Assembly (NCBI RefSeq): GCF_030818655.1
Contig: NZ_JAUTAN010000001.1
Span: forward strand, 4,316,405 to 4,380,404
Length of the DNA stretch: 64,000 nt
Reading direction: 5' to 3'
Source of the DNA: Nocardioides zeae
GTDB lineage: Bacteria; Actinomycetota; Actinomycetes; Propionibacteriales; Nocardioidaceae
Numbering within the stretch: the first letter of the stretch is position 1; each line of letters starts with the position of its first letter. Below the pieces are notes generated by a model. The model searched no databases and was not told the DNA's origin. It was given only the letters and a program-made list of their open reading frames with translations. Shown here piece by piece: positions 4,882 through 19,659 of the stretch. Made by a program: the position numbers and the translations under genes.

Positions 4882-6237
4882 ATGAGCACCACGTCGACGA
4901 CACCGCCCGGGCACGTCGCCCCACGGGGGGACCGCCCGCAGGAGATGCGGAAGGTCGCCGTCGCCAGCTGCGTCGGCACCACGATCGAGTACTACGACTT
5001 CTTCATCTACGGCACCGCCGCCGCCCTCGTCTTCCCGACGGTGTTCTTCCCCGCGCTGGGGTCCACCGCGGGCACGGTCGCCTCCTTCGCGACGTTCGCG
5101 GTCGCCTTCGTGGCGCGTCCGCTCGGTGCCGTGCTCTTCGGCCACTTCGGCGACCGGCTCGGCCGCAAGCGCACCCTCGTCACGACGCTCCTGCTCATGG
5201 GTGCGGCGACGGTCGCGATCGGCCTGCTGCCGACGGCGGCGGCCATCGGCGTGCTCGCGCCCATCGCCCTCGTGGTGCTGCGCTTCCTCCAGGGCCTCGC
5301 GGTCGGCGGCGAGTGGGCGGGGGCGAACCTGCTGACGGCGGAGTACGCGCCGGTCGGCAAGCGCGGCTTCTACGCCGTCTTCCCGCAGCTCGGCCCGGCC
5401 TTCGCCTTCGCGCTGTCGAGCGCGACCTTCCTGGTGAGCGACGCCGTGCTCGGCACCACGGACGGGGCGTTCCTCAGCTACGGCTGGCGCATCCCCTTCA
5501 TCGCGAGCGCGCTCATGGTGGCCGTGGGGCTCTACATCCGGATCAGCATCGAGGAGACCCCGGCGTTCCGTGCCGAGGCCGAGCGGGCCGACCGGGCGGA
5601 GGACGTCGCCGGCGCGAAGCGCCCGCTCCCGTTCGTCGAGGTGGTGCGCCAGCAGCCGCTCGAGATCCTGCTGTCCGCCGGCCTCATGAGCGTGCTCTTC
5701 GGCTTCTTCTACATGGGGACGGCCTACCTCACCGCCTACGGCACCGCACCCGAGGGCGCCGCGCTCGACCGGCAGTTCGTGCTCTCCACGGGCATCGTGG
5801 CCGCCCTGGCCCTCGGCGTGGCCACCCTCGCCGGCGGCGTGTGGTCGGACCGTGTCGGCCGTCGCCCGGTGATCATCACGTCCGGCGTGCTGGCGCTCGC
5901 CTGGTCGCTGGTGCTCTTCCCGCTCCTCGACACCGACACCCCGCTCGCGTTCGCGGCCGGCGTGGTCGTGACGCTCGCGATCTTCGGTCTCGCCTTCGGT
6001 CCGGTCGGGGCCTACCTGCCGGAGCTCTTCGAGACCCGCTTCCGCTACACGGGCGCCGGTGCGGGCTACAACCTGGGTGGCGTGCTCGGCGGCGCGGTCC
6101 CGCCGCTGCTGGCGCCGGGCCTCACCGCGTCGTACGGCAGCATCGCCGTCGGCGTCATGCTCGCCCTGCTGGCCGTGCTCAGCATCGCCTGCACGGTCGC
6201 CCTCCGCGGTCGCACCCGCATGGCCGTGGCCGGCTGA
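4882..6237 (+). CDS. MFS transporter, metabolite:H+ symporter (MHS) type
   Basis: A 451-residue major facilitator protein with about 12 membrane segments, of the MHS group (ProP/ShiA/KgtP-like importers of osmolytes, aromatic or dicarboxylic acids). Family marks: TTIEYYDFFIYGTAAALVF in TM1, the loop GDRLGRKRTL between TM2 and TM3, GLAVGGEWAGA in TM4, and a second SDRVGRRPV loop in the C-terminal half. The ATG at 4882 is chosen because ACGGAGG lies 6-7 nt upstream. It is divergent from the GAF-LuxR gene. Proton-driven uptake of an organic acid is inferred; the substrate is unknown. Confidence 0.85.
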   Translation: MSTTSTTPPGHVAPRGDRPQEMRKVAVASCVGTTIEYYDFFIYGTAAALVFPTVFFPALGSTAGTVASFATFAVAFVARPLGAVLFGHFGDRLGRKRTLVTTLLLMGAATVAIGLLPTAAAIGVLAPIALVVLRFLQGLAVGGEWAGANLLTAEYAPVGKRGFYAVFPQLGPAFAFALSSATFLVSDAVLGTTDGAFLSYGWRIPFIASALMVAVGLYIRISIEETPAFRAEAERADRAEDVAGAKRPLPFVEVVRQQPLEILLSAGLMSVLFGFFYMGTAYLTAYGTAPEGAALDRQFVLSTGIVAALALGVATLAGGVWSDRVGRRPVIITSGVLALAWSLVLFPLLDTDTPLAFAAGVVVTLAIFGLAFGPVGAYLPELFETRFRYTGAGAGYNLGGVLGGAVPPLLAPGLTASYGSIAVGVMLALLAVLSIACTVALRGRTRMAVAG

Positions 6238-11130: not shown

Positions 11131-11155
11131 GGCGGCTTCAGGTGGTCGGTGCAAC
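11131..11155. repeat. IS30 terminal inverted repeat, right (3' of transposase)
   Basis: GGCGGCTTCAG followed by GTGGTCGGTGCAAC; pairs with 12419-12443. The transposase stop codon (11138-11140, minus strand) is inside it. Confidence 0.85.
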
Positions 11156-12412
11156 GTTGAGTAGTTGTTGGAGCCTATCGGCGGGGGTGTCCCAGTTGAG
11201 GGTTTGGCGGGGGCGGATGTTGAGGAGGCGTTCGGTCTCGGTGATGTCGGCGTCGCTGACGTGGTTGAAGTCGGTGCCCTTGGGGTGGATGTCGCGCACG
11301 AGTCCGTTGGTGTTCTCGTTGGTGCCGCGTTGCCAGGGGCTGTGGGGGTCGGCGAAGTAGACGGGGCATCCGGTGGCCAGGGTGAAGGTGGTGTGCGCGG
11401 CCATCTCGCTGCCCTGGTCCCAGGTCAGCGAGCGGCGCAACGACTCGGGCAGGTTGGTCATCATCGTGACCAGGGCAGCTGCGACGGTGGTGGCGTCGTG
11501 GGTCAGCGGCAGCCGTCGGATCAGGGCGTAGCGGGTCGAGCGTTCGACCAGGGTGATCAACGCCGAACGCCCGCCGGCGCCGATGACGAGGTCGCCCTCC
11601 CAGTGCCCGGGTACGGCGCGGTCGGCGGCTTCGGGTGGGCGGTGGCTGATGTGGGCCTCGGCACCGATCCAGGACCGGTTGGACCGTGGGGGCAGCGCCG
11701 AGCGGGGCCGACGGCTGGTGCGGCCGCTGCGCAACGCTTTCTCGACCTTCAGCTCCTCACGCAGCGATCCCTTGCCCTGCACGTAGAGCGCTTGGTAGAT
11801 CGTCTCGTGGCTCACCTGCATATCGTCGCGCCCCGGATAGCACCGCCGCAGATCCTGGCTGACCTGCACGGGTGAGAACCGGTTGTTCAACCGGACCAGC
11901 ACCGCTGCGCGCAGCACCTCACCGGCACCCCCATCCACACCCGCATCCACACCCGCATCCACGCCGGTGTCTGCACGAACTGCGAGCTTGGACGGGCGGG
12001 GCCGGGGCCGGCGCTGCTCGGTCATCACCTGCGCTGCAGCAGCGTGGTAGCGACCCAGGCGGGTGTTGCGGGCCAGTTCGCGTCCCACCGTGCTGCGGTG
12101 CACCCCGAGCTCGGCAGCGATCCGTGCTGGACACCGTCCCTCGCTGCGACGGATCTGGATCAAGGCCCGCCCGGCCTGGCTCAACCGGCCGTGCTCATCG
12201 ACCCAGTCACCGTCCAGCGGGGGTGGATGGGCACCGACAACACCGCCGTGGCGGCCCTTGCGCAGTCGCATGCCAGCGACTGTGGCCCATGAAGCCACCG
12301 TGTCTCGATCCCACCCCAGCAACTCGGACACCTGCTTCGCCGGGACCCCGGCCGCCAACAGCCCCAGACCCCGCGCACGCGCCGCTTCTTGATCCCGCAA
12401 CACAACCCCCAC
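11138..12412 (-). CDS. IS30-family transposase
   Basis: A transposase of about 424 residues with a retroviral-integrase DDE domain. The N-terminal part has one HTH-like segment (VPAKQVSELLGWDRDTVASW) and the typical IS30 HTH (RRSEGRCPARIAAELGVHRSTVGREL). The catalytic acidic residues are in GHWEGDLVIG, TWDQGSEM and RGTNENTNG. Between HTH and catalytic domain is a short tandem DAGV repeat, encoded by 12-bp DNA repeats near 11934-11962. Start is uncertain: GTG 12412 and GTG 12403 both lie just inside the left inverted repeat. Upstream open frame toward 13219 is not part of the gene, since it crosses the element end. No frameshift is seen, so it may be active. Confidence 0.9.
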   Translation of the reverse strand: MGVVLRDQEAARARGLGLLAAGVPAKQVSELLGWDRDTVASWATVAGMRLRKGRHGGVVGAHPPPLDGDWVDEHGRLSQAGRALIQIRRSEGRCPARIAAELGVHRSTVGRELARNTRLGRYHAAAAQVMTEQRRPRPRPSKLAVRADTGVDAGVDAGVDGGAGEVLRAAVLVRLNNRFSPVQVSQDLRRCYPGRDDMQVSHETIYQALYVQGKGSLREELKVEKALRSGRTSRRPRSALPPRSNRSWIGAEAHISHRPPEAADRAVPGHWEGDLVIGAGGRSALITLVERSTRYALIRRLPLTHDATTVAAALVTMMTNLPESLRRSLTWDQGSEMAAHTTFTLATGCPVYFADPHSPWQRGTNENTNGLVRDIHPKGTDFNHVSDADITETERLLNIRPRQTLNWDTPADRLQQLLNVAPTT

Positions 12413-12418
12413 AGCCGT

Positions 12419-12443
12419 GTTGCACCGACCACTAGAAACCGCC
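12419..12443. repeat. IS30 terminal inverted repeat, left (5' of transposase)
   Basis: GTTGCACCGACCAC followed by TAGAAACCGCC, the inverted partner of 11131-11155 (22 of 25 positions match). It is followed by the CTC target duplication. Confidence 0.85.
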
Positions 12444-12535
12444 CTCGGCGTGTCGCGGTCCGGGTCCGCGTTTTCTTCTCCCGGTTCGGGTCCGGCCCCG
12501 GTCCCGGTCCGCGTTTTCTTCCGCCGAGGCAAGGG
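12444..12535. repeat. Intergenic palindromic repeat, copy A, right half
   Basis: Starts CTCGGCGTGTCGCG and carries GGTCCGCGTTTTCTTC twice (12463-12478 and 12506-12521). The first is the complement of 11097-11113 in the left half, so before the IS30 insertion they formed one hairpin. The order and spacing agree with copy B at 16984-17120. Confidence 0.75.
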
Positions 12536-12545
12536 CCAGCCGGGC

Positions 12546-13085
12546 TCAGCCCACCGCGGGCGCCGCGGCCAGCACCGTCCGCACGGCGGCGACGCGCTCG
12601 TCGTACCGCCCCGGCCCCGCGCCGTACGCCCGCTGCTCCCACGGGTCCACGACGGTGGCGAGCAGCGCACACGCCCGTTCCGCCCACGCCCGGAGCTGCG
12701 GGTGGACGCCGCCCGCGACCTTGAAGTGCGCCACCGCGGCGGCGACGTAGGCGTCGATCTCGCCGTGCAGGAAGCGGACGTGCGGCTCGTCGGCGTCGAG
12801 CCACGCGACGACGTCCTCTGGGGCCGCCTCCCACAGCTCCTCCGGCACGAGCGCCCAGTCGTCGAGCAGCTCGACGAGCGCGCCGGGGACCTCGTCGTCC
12901 GACCCGCCGTCGAAGAAGTACTCCTCGAGGTGCCGCAACGTGTCGTGCCCGTCGTCGGAGCCGAACGGCGCACGCGGGTCGTCGGCGGCCCAGAACCAGT
13001 CGGGCGCGACCGCGACGTACGCGGGGTGGCTCGTGGCACGCGCCAGTCCGTCGAGGCCGTCGAGGAAGCGGGACGAGGTCGCCAT
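12546..13085 (-). CDS. Hypothetical protein, acidic, 179 aa
   Basis: A 179-residue soluble acidic protein that I do not recognise. It starts MATSSRFLDGLDGLARATSH (ATG 13085) and is rich in Asp, Glu and Trp in the middle (APDWFWAADDPRAPF; LRHLEEYFFDGGSDDEVPG; LVPEELWEAAPEDVVAWLD). It has no signal peptide, membrane segment or metal-binding Cys pair. Strand-appropriate codon use and GC-rich third positions support a real gene. It is divergent from the acetyltransferase gene at 13171 and lies 100 bp from the IS30 element, which did not damage it. Confidence 0.65.
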   Translation of the reverse strand: MATSSRFLDGLDGLARATSHPAYVAVAPDWFWAADDPRAPFGSDDGHDTLRHLEEYFFDGGSDDEVPGALVELLDDWALVPEELWEAAPEDVVAWLDADEPHVRFLHGEIDAYVAAAVAHFKVAGGVHPQLRAWAERACALLATVVDPWEQRAYGAGPGRYDERVAAVRTVLAAAPAVG

Positions 13086-13170
13086 GCGGCGCACGCTAGC
13101 GAGCCCGCGCCGACCGGATAGCGTCGACCCGTGGCCGCCGACGGGCGGCGGCCCCGAGCGAGGAGTCGCC

Positions 13171-13476
13171 ATGGCGGTCGAGGTCGTCGAGAACGAGCAG
13201 GAGAAGCGGTACGAGGCACGCGTCGACGGGGCGCTCGCCGGCTTCGCGGTCTACATCCCCGCCGACGGCATGCGCGTCATCACCCACACCGAGGTGGACC
13301 CGGCCCACGAGGGCCAGGGAGTCGGCTCGGCCCTGGCCCGCTTCGCCCTCGACGACATCCGCGCCCGGGGCACGAAGGTCATGCCGCTCTGCCCGTTCGT
13401 GCTGGGCTGGATGCAGCGCCACCCCGACTACGCCGACCTCGCCTTCAACGCCCCGGCCAGCCGGGTCACCGACTGA
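13171..13476 (+). CDS. Small GNAT-fold N-acetyltransferase (NATD1/YjdJ type)
   Basis: A 101-residue protein of the minimal GNAT family (COG2388). The acetyl-CoA loop is seen as THTEVDPAHEGQGVGSALARFAL, with the Q/GxGxG/A core QGVGSA; the end MPLCPFVLGWMQRHPDYADL is characteristic of this group. The ATG at 13171 has GAGGAG upstream; a TAGCGT box at 13119-13124 would give a roughly 40-nt leader. The substrate is unknown. It is followed after 16 bp by the CMD-family gene, probably one transcript. Confidence 0.85.
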   Translation: MAVEVVENEQEKRYEARVDGALAGFAVYIPADGMRVITHTEVDPAHEGQGVGSALARFALDDIRARGTKVMPLCPFVLGWMQRHPDYADLAFNAPASRVTD

Positions 13477-16983: not shown

Positions 16984-17120
16984 GAAAGTGCGCGGGGGGC
17001 TCGGCCGGGAGGAAGAAAACGCGGACCGGGCGGGCCTGCGCCTCGGCGTGTCGCGCCTCCGGGTCCGCGTTTTCTTTCGGGGCTCCCGGGCCCCGTCCGC
17101 GTTTTCTTTCTCGGGCCCCG
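16984..17120. repeat. Intergenic palindromic repeat, copy B (uninterrupted)
   Basis: About 137 bp between convergent npdG and rpsN. It starts AAAGTGCGCGG, then GGAAGAAAACGCGGACC (17011-17027), GCGCCTCGGCGTGTCGCG, GGTCCGCGTTTTCTTTC (17062-17078) and a second CGTCCGCGTTTTCTTTC (17094-17110). The first and second units are complementary (17-bp stem) and each ends in a T-rich GTTTTCTTT, as a two-way terminator would. The interrupted copy A is at 11070-11130 plus 12444-12535. Confidence 0.75.
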
Positions 17121-17129
17121 GCCCGACCC

Positions 17130-17435
17130 CTACCAGCTCGACTTCGTGATGCCCGGGAGCTCGCCGCGGTGCGCCATCTCGCGGAACCGCACGCGCGACA
17201 CCCCGGCCTTGCGCAGGTAGCCCCGGGGCCTGCCGTCGACCTGGTCGCGGTTGCGCAGGCGCACGGGGGAGGAGTCGCGGGGCATCCGGGCCAGCGCCTG
17301 GACCGCCGCGGTCAGCTCCGCGGAGCCGGCGGGGGCGCGCCGTACGCGCTCCTTCGCCTCCGCGCGCCGCTCGGCCCAGCGGGCGACGATCTCCTGGCGC
17401 CGCTTCTCGGCGGCGATCTTCGACTGCTTGGCCAT
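17130..17435 (-). CDS. rpsN: 30S ribosomal protein S14, zinc-independent form
   Basis: A 101-residue long-form S14. It starts [20 protein letters not shown] and ends PGITKSSW, with the conserved [20 protein letters not shown]. The long form lacks the two C-x-x-C pairs of the short zinc-binding S14, and no Cys is present. It is the last gene of the minus-strand operon rpmB-rpmG-rpsN; its ATG overlaps the rpmG stop (TGATG). Expression is probably induced in zinc starvation through the Zur-type box at 17865-17879. Confidence 0.95.
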
Positions 17436-17605
17436 CAGCGCTCCTCCCGGAACTCGACGTGGCGGCGGATCCGGGGGTCGTACTTCATGAGCACCATCCG
17501 GTCCGGGTCGTTCCGCCGGTTCTTCTTCGTGACGTAGGTGTAGCCCGTGCCCGCCGTGGAGCGGAGCTTGATGATCGGGCGCACGTCGCTGCCGCGCTTC
17601 GCCAT
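17435..17605 (-). CDS. rpmG: 50S ribosomal protein L33, zinc-independent form
   Basis: A 56-residue L33: [19 protein letters not shown], then [19 protein letters not shown] and a basic end. Zinc-binding L33 has two C-x-x-C pairs; this one has no Cys. It sits between rpmB and rpsN with 1-nt overlaps at both ends, a translationally coupled operon. Confidence 0.95.
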
Positions 17606-17841
17606 CAGAGCTTCACCCCTGCCCGCTGCAGCTCGGCGACGACCGATTCGATGCCGCGGGCGTCGATCACCTTGATGCCGCGCGCGCTGACGCGCAGCTT
17701 CACGCTGCGCCCGAGCGTCGGCACGTAGTAGCGCTTCGTCTGGATGTTGACGTCGAACCGTCGCTTGGTCCGGCGGTGGGAGTGCGAGACGTGGTGGCCG
17801 AATCCCGGCTCCCGTCCCGTCACCTGGCACACACGTGACAT
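17605..17841 (-). CDS. rpmB: 50S ribosomal protein L28, zinc-independent form
   Basis: A 78-residue L28, first gene of the minus-strand operon. ATG 17841 gives [20 protein letters not shown], followed by the basic [16 protein letters not shown]. Only a single Cys (residue 5) remains of the four that hold zinc in the C+ form. The Zur-type palindrome lies 24 bp upstream, between it and rpmE. Confidence 0.95.
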
Positions 17842-17864
17842 CGGGTTTCCTTCCGTGGCAGACT

Positions 17865-17879
17865 TGATAACGGTTCTCA
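17865..17879. promoter_or_regulatory. Zur-type box, shared by two divergent operons
   Basis: TGATAACGGTTCTCA, a 15-bp palindrome of the form TGAnAACnGTTnTCA, in a notably AT-rich patch midway between rpmB (-) and rpmE (+). Actinobacterial Zur sites have this TGA-AT-rich-TCA design, and zinc-independent ribosomal genes are standard Zur targets. One site could repress both promoters. Assignment to Zur is inferred; no zur gene is in the window. Confidence 0.75.
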
Positions 17880-17905
17880 TTCTAGACACGAAAGTGAGCA
17901 TCCTG

Positions 17906-18184
17906 ATGAAGCAGGGCATCCACCCCGACTACGGACCGGTGGTCTTCCGCGACCGCTCGGCCGGTTGGACGCTGCTGACGCGCTCGACGCTGGCGCGCAC
18001 CACCGGCGAGACGACCGAGGTGGACGGCGTGACCTACCCCGTCGTCGACGTCGACGTCTCCTCGGCCAGCCACCCCTGGTGGACCGGCAAGGGTCGCGTC
18101 CTCGACACGGAGGGCCGGGTGGAGGCCTTCCGGCGTCGGTACGGCGCGGCTGCCGCCCCCCGCGGCACGGAGCCCGCCTCGTGA
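17906..18184 (+). CDS. rpmE2: 50S ribosomal protein L31 type B (zinc-independent)
   Basis: A 92-residue L31[21 protein letters not shown], then the type-B hallmark [24 protein letters not shown] (read in two parts). There are no Cys, unlike zinc-binding type A. ATG 17906 is chosen from homology; GTG 17894 in the same frame has a slightly better spaced GAAAG. First gene of the plus-strand operon rpmE2-mrf-rpmF-rpmJ. Confidence 0.95.
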
Positions 18185-19284
18185 GGGCCGCCGTGCTGCT
18201 CGTGACCGGTGTCGACCCGGACGCGATGGCGGCCGCACAGCTGGGTCTGCTCTGGGACGCGCCCCGGGCGGTCGCCGTGAGGCACCGCATCGACGTCGCC
18301 CGTGGCGTGCTCGAGCGCGTGGTCTCGGACCTGAACGGGGTGGTGGAGCACGAGGAGACCGAGCTCGAGCACGCCTGCGTCAGCTGCGCGCTGCGCGAGG
18401 ACGTGCTGCCCACGCTCGACCGGCTCGCCCGCGACGGGCGGTGGCACTCGATCGTGGTGCAGCTGCCGGTCGGCGCGGAGGCGGACCAGGTGTGCACGGT
18501 GCTCGCCCGCGACCCCCGGCTCGCGCGCCGGCTCCGGGTCGCCGCCGTCGTGACCGCCCTCGACCACGGTGCGGTCGTCGAGGACCTCCTCGGCGACGAC
18601 ACCCTCGCCGACCGGGGCCGCGGCACGTCCGAGGACGACGACCGCGGCATCGGCGACGTGGCCTGCGCGATGGTCGAGCACGCCGACGTCGTGGTGCTGA
18701 CGGGCCCCCCGACCGAGGACGAGGACCGCTCGGGGGAGCCGGACGTGGCCGCGACGCTCGTGCGCACGCTGGCACGCCCCGACGTGCCCGTGGTGGAGGA
18801 CGCCACCCGGCTCGAGGCGGCGTCCCTCGTGGCGCAGCCGCCGCACCGGCACGGGCGGACCGTGGCCTGGGGGTCCCACGTGCGGGAGGTGCCGTTCGTC
18901 GCGGCCCCCGGCCCGGGCGTGTGGTCGCTGGAGCTCCGCGCCGACCTGCCGTTCCACCCCGACCGGCTCGTGGAGGACCTCGAGTCGCTCGCGGCGGGCC
19001 CCTGGCGCACCCGCGGCTGCTTCTGGCTGCCGACGCGCCCTGACCGGGCGCTGCTCTGGGAGGGCGCCGGCGGCCACCTCTCCATCGGCGACGGGGAGGC
19101 GTGGGGGCCGCGGCCGCGGCGTACGCACCTCACCTTCGTCGGCGTCGGCGAGCGTCCCGCGCACCTGCCCGCCACGTTCGAGTCCCTGCTCGTGCCGGCC
19201 GCCGCCGTCGGTCCGGGCATCCGCTGGACCACCGCGGAGGACGGGTTCGAGCCGTGGCTCGGTCCGATCCGCCGGGTCGCCTGA
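18181..19284 (+). CDS. Mrf/CobW-like protein of the zinc-starvation ribosome cluster (degenerate G3E GTPase)
   Basis: A 367-residue protein with a CobW/G3E-like layout that has lost the GTPase P-loop: where G3E proteins have GxxGAGKTT, this reads [15 protein letters not shown]. The metal-binding region is [19 protein letters not shown], a C-x-x-C in place of CxCC. The C-terminal CobW_C part has [20 protein letters not shown] followed by GGHLSIG. The same combination is seen, from memory, in mycobacterial Mrf (Rv0106 family), encoded with zinc-free ribosomal proteins and recruiting the hibernation factor Mpy. GTG 18181 overlaps the rpmE2 stop, so they are coupled. Identification as Mrf is inferred from motif and context; a zinc chaperone is the alternative. 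Confidence 0.75.
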
Positions 19285-19319
19285 GCGCCCACCCCTGACG
19301 CAAGGAGAAGGAGAGAACC

Positions 19320-19511
19320 GTGGCCGTCCCCAAGCGACGCATGTCGCGCAGCAACACCCGCCACCGCCGTTCGCAGTGGAAGGCGACGCCGGCCGACCTC
19401 GTGCCCGTGGTCGTCGGCGGCGAGGTGCACGCCGTGCCCCGGCCGCTGGTCCGCGCCGTGCAGCGCGGCCTGGTCGACCCCGCCACCGGCCGACCGACCC
19501 GCAAGGCCTGA
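19320..19511 (+). CDS. rpmF: 50S ribosomal protein L32, zinc-independent form
   Basis: A 63-residue L32: [20 protein letters not shown] with GTG 19320 preceded by AAGGAGAAGGAG. The usual zinc ribbon C-x-x-C pairs are absent (no Cys). It lies 35 bp after the Mrf-like gene in the same operon. Confidence 0.95.
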
Positions 19512-19536
19512 GACAACGCCCGAGAGGAGGAACGCG

Positions 19537-19659
19537 ATGAAGGTCCGCAACTCGCTGCGGTCGCTGAAGAACCAGCCCGGCTCGCAGGTCGTGCGGCGCC
19601 GTGGCCGCACGTACGTCATCAACAAGCAGAACCCCCGGCTGAAGGCCCGCCAGGGCTGA
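19537..19659 (+). CDS. rpmJ: 50S ribosomal protein L36, zinc-independent form
   Basis: A 40-residue L36: [20 protein letters not shown], then [20 protein letters not shown]. It is longer than zinc-binding L36 (37 aa) and lacks the Cys3-His site, as in the YkgO type. RBS GAGAGGAGG lies 7 nt before ATG 19537. It is the last gene of the plus-strand operon. Confidence 0.95.

Follow-up and report, generated by a model that had tools for sequence, protein, structure and literature searches.

The locus described here raises the question of how much of a ribosome's zinc can be placed under the control of a single operator. It lies in a 64,000-nucleotide stretch of the Nocardioides zeae genome (assembly GCF_030818655.1, contig NZ_JAUTAN010000001.1, positions 4,316,405 to 4,380,404), hereafter called the window, which is the terminal part of a single 4.38-Mb contig. 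Seven open reading frames (ORFs) form two divergent operons with a 64-bp gap between them. Zinc-free forms of the ribosomal proteins S14, L33 and L28 are encoded on the minus strand, and L31, a protein resembling the mycobacterial MPY recruitment factor (MRF), L32 and L36 follow one another on the plus strand. As judged from the sequence, both operons are very probably silenced by zinc via Zur, acting at one shared Zur-type box, and opened in starvation, when the zinc-free forms would replace their zinc-binding (C+) counterparts. Zinc-loaded Zur would bind the box and block both promoters; when zinc is lacking, both operons would fire, and new ribosomes would incorporate the zinc-free proteins, by which zinc would be spared or released.

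All six ribosomal ORFs exceed the curated Pfam cut-off of their own family, and L31 and L36 are assigned to type B by NCBIfam. Direct reading finds no CxxC pair in any of the six: S14, L33, L31, L32 and L36 are cysteine-free, and the single remaining cysteine of L28 is residue 5, in C-Q-V-T. An earlier note on this DNA had placed six CxxC-free ribosomal proteins and an intervening 15-bp palindrome at this locus, which is borne out by the domain matches and the cysteine reading; it overlooked the MRF-like gene of 367 amino acids, which occupies the L31–L32 interval, begins with GTG and overlaps the L31 stop by 4 bp. The minus-strand neighbours S14, L33 and L28 overlap by 1 base each.

The palindrome, TGATAACGGTTCTCA, lies 23 bp from the L28 start codon and 26 bp from the L31 start codon. 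It fits TGAnAACnGTTnTCA exactly, with six of seven base pairs self-complementary, the exception being the 'n'. The pattern TGANAACNGTTNTCA has one mismatch-free occurrence in the whole 4.38-Mb genome, the one at 17865-17879. The wider pattern TGANAAYNRTTNTCA has three exact sites and seven with one mismatch, and at up to two mismatches it yields 23 sites versus 10 for the reversed control; the chance of an exact TGANAAYNRTTNTCA landing in the 64-bp gap is, by our own arithmetic, of the order of 4e-5. Conservation was assessed in 31 comparison loci picked for their cluster genes, not for the box, of which L059 and L108 come from the same genome (SR21) and G038 and G028 contribute two loci each. 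In 28 of them, no more than 120 bp separate a cluster start codon from a box with one mismatch or none, and the box is retained across changed gene orders. Boxes are dense in promoters (31 sites in 4,735 bases, compared with five in the remaining ~391 kb), and 30 scrambled palindromes gave no promoter site. A chance palindrome is rejected by the uniqueness of TGANAACNGTTNTCA, the promoter conservation and the scrambled control.

The genome also carries znuA-znuC-znuB-zur, with zur (802829-803245) directly after znuB and two boxes of the same kind at the znuA start (806140 and 806162), which are among the ten best TGANAAYNRTTNTCA sites; the search for zur and znuABC proposed in the earlier note was thus successful. 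Domain scores in this uptake operon are 243.1 bits for ZnuA, 193.4 bits for ABC-3 and 115.2 bits for FUR. The best structure alignment of the Zur protein is with 3mwm (129 residues, 189.6 bits), and histidines and cysteines agree in the HHHHLVC, CxxC and C-terminal CxxC parts. The 3mwm entry, titled 'putative metal uptake regulation protein', is presumably the Zur of Streptomyces coelicolor. Another of the ten best boxes separates the genes of a second ABC-3 permease and an ABC ATPase, and one, at 187843, is without a clear neighbouring gene in the ORF list.

It is very improbable that a different member of the Fur family, responding to iron or peroxide, acts at the box. Two other, more distant Fur-family genes (720542 and 4270562) are present, and similar boxes occur near FecCD/FecB-type transport genes and a non-ribosomal peptide synthetase (NRPS), which are often iron-related. 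However, boxes also mark znuA and the second ABC-3 permease, the pattern is like that of published actinobacterial Zur boxes (PMC7174638, PMC2823685; these papers and PMC6103462 are represented here and below by excerpts), and the cluster encodes zinc-free substitutes for ribosomal proteins.

Regulation by Zur with replacement of C+ proteins is also consistent with the paralogues. Each family search returned two genome copies in all, one of them a C+ partner located elsewhere, for six of the six cluster proteins (Table 1). The cluster genes are therefore spare copies and not the only ones, and an absence of C+ partners, on which the replacement idea of the earlier note would have failed, is rejected. 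It is exceedingly unlikely that the set is silent or decaying and has lost its role in the ribosome. The absence of the MRF-like gene from 15 of 25 same-genus genomes, which makes it dispensable, and a fused L36-L28 in one genome (G007) would fit such decay, whereas the seven ORFs are intact, the box is retained, and non-synonymous divergence (dN) is lower than synonymous divergence (dS) against all three relatives compared. One of them, an N. zeae comparison genome (Propionibacteriales) and the nearest named genome found, has the identical seven-gene order and an MRF-like protein of 91% identity over the best segment. Against this genome, dN is 0.000-0.038 and dS 0.078-0.372 across the seven genes, and dN/dS is ~0.06-0.25 in the six genes with an amino-acid change, L36 being unchanged; the ratios for L33 and L36 are rough, with four nucleotide differences each. 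Against the two remoter relatives, ratios reach ~0.45.

The MRF-like protein matches CobW_C (PF07683, 48.1 bits) and part of cobW (PF02492), and its structure is predicted with a pLDDT of 93.8 and a pTM of 0.92. It has the traits of the MRF type: it is COG0523-like, lacks GTPase motifs, has CxxC and not CxCC, and adjoins zinc-free ribosomal genes. In 160 MRF-like sequences (the best 120 of 549 matches plus 40 from loci including the window, with some duplicates), the COG0523/CobW GTPase motifs Walker A (first 60 residues) and [NTS]KxD (G4; residues 121-230) are absent throughout (0/160 each), which speaks against the 'GTPase' in the database name. CxxC is present in all 160, as CVSC in 113 and as CACC in one. 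By analogy, we infer that the window protein acts as the mycobacterial MRF does; with its GTP-binding motifs absent, it would help to park or protect ribosomes, not as a GTPase.

The MRF-like gene does not always travel with the ribosomal set, as 11 loci in other families of the order contain it alone, zinc-free ribosomal genes being absent from the ~4 kb covered. These loci were scanned separately and are outside the 31-locus count given above. In six of them (L042, L051, L053, L054, L055, L057), an exact box lies within 40 bp upstream of the gene, and these are probably zinc-regulated family members. A zinc-handling protein might be expected to have its own box in this way, and the MRF-like protein could accordingly be seen as a zinc metallochaperone that gives scarce or released zinc to clients, instead of a hibernation factor. 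Membership in the CobW/COG0523 superfamily, the retained CxxC, a weaker NCBIfam match to the zinc chaperone ZigA (81.9 bits) and the closest solved folds, those of YjiA (E 4.6e-14, with TM merely 0.33-0.38; two of three entries Zn-bound), are compatible with this function. COG0523 chaperones, however, are GTPases, whereas both motifs are missing here; the best NCBIfam match is MRF; and the Mycobacterium smegmatis gene in a like position encodes the MPY recruitment factor (PMC7174638). A chaperone role is thus rather unlikely, and a role like that of the mycobacterial MRF is preferred.

Several observations tell against this combined picture of a Zur-controlled set with an MRF. The best NCBIfam match of the window protein, NF047431, scores 161.3 bits with a curated cut-off of 375, and by that test the protein is therefore not MRF proper; a relative from family f3, encoded beside L31, L33 and S14, reaches 176.9 bits. 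Five of the 11 stand-alone loci are without a near box: L043-L046 have none at up to two mismatches, and that of L048 is ~340 bp off. Three of the 31 cluster loci (G029, G031 and G034, all family f3) have the box only at two mismatches, in the same place, and the window box agrees with the footprint consensus from S. coelicolor, TGAAAATGATTTTCA (as given in PMC2823685), at 11 of 15 positions. A consensus scan for sigma-70 promoters in the region returned none, and the two further Fur-family genes mentioned above belong on the same side.

Eight ribosomal proteins are usually listed with zinc-free forms, and the status of S18 and S4 bears on the question of a fully zinc-free ribosome. The earlier note described the set as lacking S18. 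This is correct for the cluster, but S18 is not missing from the zinc-free complement, as the sole S18 gene found in the genome, downstream of ssb, is already cysteine-free; because of this, S18 switching would not be needed. The N-terminal part of S4 (PF00163, 101.1 bits) is without a CxxC pair. Apparently, all eight listed proteins can be zinc-free in this organism, six of them switchable and S18 and S4 (one gene read each) permanently so.

The cysteine-free S18 sets the window genome apart from the same-genus comparison genomes. The main S18 was detected in 23 of 24 other same-genus genomes and contains CQFC in all 23, with no match in G004 (85% complete). Cysteine-free S18 proteins are also found in N. 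zeae, ChNu-153, N. alkalitolerans, two Aeromicrobium, Jonesia and four genomes of family f2. In an S18 tree of 18 rows and 78 columns, which omits the cluster S18s of G015 and G005, the cysteine S18s of Nocardioides, Pimelobacter and one f3 genome form one group (100/100) with the window S18 outside it. The topology fits gene replacement rather than a recent loss of cysteines, but the remainder of the tree is weakly resolved.

A strict correspondence between S18-less clusters and a cysteine-free main S18 is not upheld, since S18-less clusters occur with either type of main S18. The window genome, N. zeae, ChNu-153, N. alkalitolerans, two Aeromicrobium and Jonesia combine an S18-less cluster with a cysteine-free main S18; in SR21, N. 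lianchengensis, Pimelobacter, 21Sc5-5, G007, G012, G014 and G022, such a cluster occurs with a C+ main S18. A cluster S18 was seen in five genomes (G001, G005, G011, G015 and N. gansuensis), and the main S18 is of the C+ type in each.

Somewhat tentatively, these data can be combined into the proposal that one operator can make the ribosome fully zinc-free: S18 and S4 would be permanently so, the single box would bring in the other six together with a GTPase-dead MRF, the switch would be coupled to a GTP-independent hibernation factor, and S18 would have been exchanged at its native place. If true, this lineage would test whether a ribosome that loses every zinc site still translates or only hibernates, with one operator for control and no S18 swap to confuse the outcome. 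The comparison also suggests that S18 can shift from a switched to a permanent zinc-free state.

The strategy is known, and the window is an unusually full version of it. In M. smegmatis, the altRP/mrf locus (MSMEG_6065-6070) contains S18-S14-L33-L28 adjoining MRF and L31 (PMC7174638). By our own comparison, the Zur sites listed for MSMEG_6068 and MSMEG_6069 have 21 bases in common on opposite strands, and the locus reads as five zinc-free proteins plus MRF on one bidirectional Zur box. Chelation of zinc with TPEN raises these homologues ~280- to 1,233-fold; they belong to the Zur- and zinc-dependent genes whose induction is >100- to 5,000-fold, and zur deletion raises them as well (PMC7174638). 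The mycobacterial arrangement is not found in the window, where the order is L31-MRF instead of MRF-L31 by numbering, S18 is out, and L32 and L36 are added. The COG0523-like Rv0106 of M. tuberculosis is the listed orthologue of MSMEG_6069/MRF (PMC7174638), whereas the window protein is too distant for the NCBIfam MRF cut-off.

The Zur list of S. coelicolor likewise has six zinc-free ribosomal proteins (rpmE2, rpmF2, rpmB2, rpmG2, rpsN2 and rpsR2; PMC6103462 table), but with S18 in and L36 out. Seven kinds of ribosomal protein, including RpmJ (L36) and RpmF (L32), occur in actinobacterial Zur regulons (PMC2823685), among them those of acnes, S. coelicolor and L. xyli. The same source places zur beside znu in Nocardioides, which, as far as its excerpted passages go, is outside the rebuilt regulons. 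The earlier note had presented L32 and L36 together with S14, L28, L33 and L31 as a broad version of the response; the combination is present, but it is less unusual than implied, given M. smegmatis (PMC7174638) and S. coelicolor (PMC6103462). The window form follows the principle of the known systems and departs from them by having L32 and L36 but no S18 in the cluster, and by the lack of cysteine in the single genomic S18. No literature on this locus was found in a search that left subscription papers mostly uncovered; among the papers covered, only PMC2823685 joins Zur, Nocardioides, ribosomal protein and zinc.

Two plasmid clusters, in Tsukamurella tyrosinosolvens (NZ_LR134465.1) and Streptomyces NBC_01001 (NZ_CP108713.1), also comprise six ribosomal genes, an MRF-matching 'GTP-binding protein' and a divergent gap. 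Both differ from the window in including S18, in lacking an annotated L36 and in gene order, as compared by annotation only and with an incomplete PLSDB gene table. A third plasmid region that matched the MRF-like protein carries no annotation.

Within the genus, the genes of the zinc-free set are for the most part retained or lost together. All 10 of the 25 genomes with the MRF-like gene carry L31, L32 and L36 in duplicate (L36 only in part in G007), nine have a second L28 and eight a second L33; S14 copies in relatives were seen through the cluster scan only. A second L36 is absent from all 15 MRF-negative genomes; for L31, the sole sign of an extra copy among them is a weak fragment in G016 that stays below the cut-off. 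G017, at 9% contamination, yields L32 and L28 twice each, at equal scores and frame lengths, which probably reflects duplicated contigs. In G007 (L067, ~5139-5321), L36 is fused in frame to the last part of L28, and neither L28 nor L33 turns up apart from this; the fusion is either a deletion or an assembly collapse. N. gansuensis seemingly has two loci (L154/L111), one with cysteine-free S18, S14, L33, L28 and L32 plus an MRF-like gene, and the other in which a further MRF-like gene has a box and a zur gene in its vicinity.

A second Zur-type gene lies in or beside the cluster in eight of nine other same-genus clusters (L059 and L061-L067, corresponding to G010, G011, G001, G015, G005, G012, G022 and G007). 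It is 50-57% identical to the respective genome's other Zur and may give the cluster its own zinc threshold. G014 and the window are without such a gene by the cluster.

Table 1. Features of the zinc-free ribosomal cluster (window positions) and C+ partners of its proteins (genome positions)
Feature	Position	Strand	Details
Zinc-free S14 (rpsN2, long form)	17130..17435	-	101 aa, 0 Cys; PF00253 88.9 bits
Zinc-free L33 (rpmG2)	17435..17605	-	56 aa, 0 Cys; PF00471 60.8 bits
Zinc-free L28 (rpmB2)	17605..17841	-	78 aa, 1 Cys; PF00830 91.4 bits
Zur-type box TGATAACGGTTCTCA	17865..17879	.	in gap separating both operons
Type B L31 (rpmE2)	17906..18184	+	92 aa, 0 Cys; NF002462 109.2 bits
MRF-like CobW/COG0523-type protein	18181..19284	+	367 aa, CVSC; PF07683, PF02492, NF047431 161.3 bits
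Zinc-free L32 (rpmF2)	19320..19511	+	63 aa, 0 Cys; PF01783 38.4 bits
Type B L36 (rpmJ2)	19537..19659	+	40 aa, 0 Cys; NF002021 78.7 bits
Hairpin 3' of S14, possible two-way terminator	17013..17076	.	arms 21 nt, 90% complementary
C+ S14	genome 2069500		CQRC, CRIC
C+ L33	genome 2404624		CVDC, CPRC
C+ L28	genome 412783		
C+ L31	genome 657761		
C+ L32	genome 419142		CVNPAC, CASC
C+ L36	genome 1939461		CDKC

Further boxes in the genome point to other possible members of the regulon. Those between 2868221 and 2893504 are at 2873819 (between a 1858-amino-acid NRPS and an ABC transporter), 2888102 (methyltransferase) and 2893490 (near a family 5 solute-binding protein), and the region is a possible zinc-regulated metallophore cluster. 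Boxes at 3868358 and 3869418 flank a periplasmic-binding-protein gene adjoining a FecCD permease, which suggests a second metal or metallophore uptake route.

The cluster is flanked by an F420-type oxidoreductase gene upstream and an enoyl-CoA hydratase gene downstream, and, judged from sequence beginnings, these flanking genes partly recur by the cluster in N. zeae, ChNu-153 and N. alkalitolerans. The motif GGTCCGCGTTTTCTTNC has six matches in the window at up to two mismatches, with none expected (11097, 12463, 12506, 17011, 17062 and 17094), and the copies at 17011 and 17062 build the hairpin immediately after S14. A long ORF at 11138-13219, with helix-turn-helix and rve integrase domains in its later part, is presumably an IS30-type transposase.

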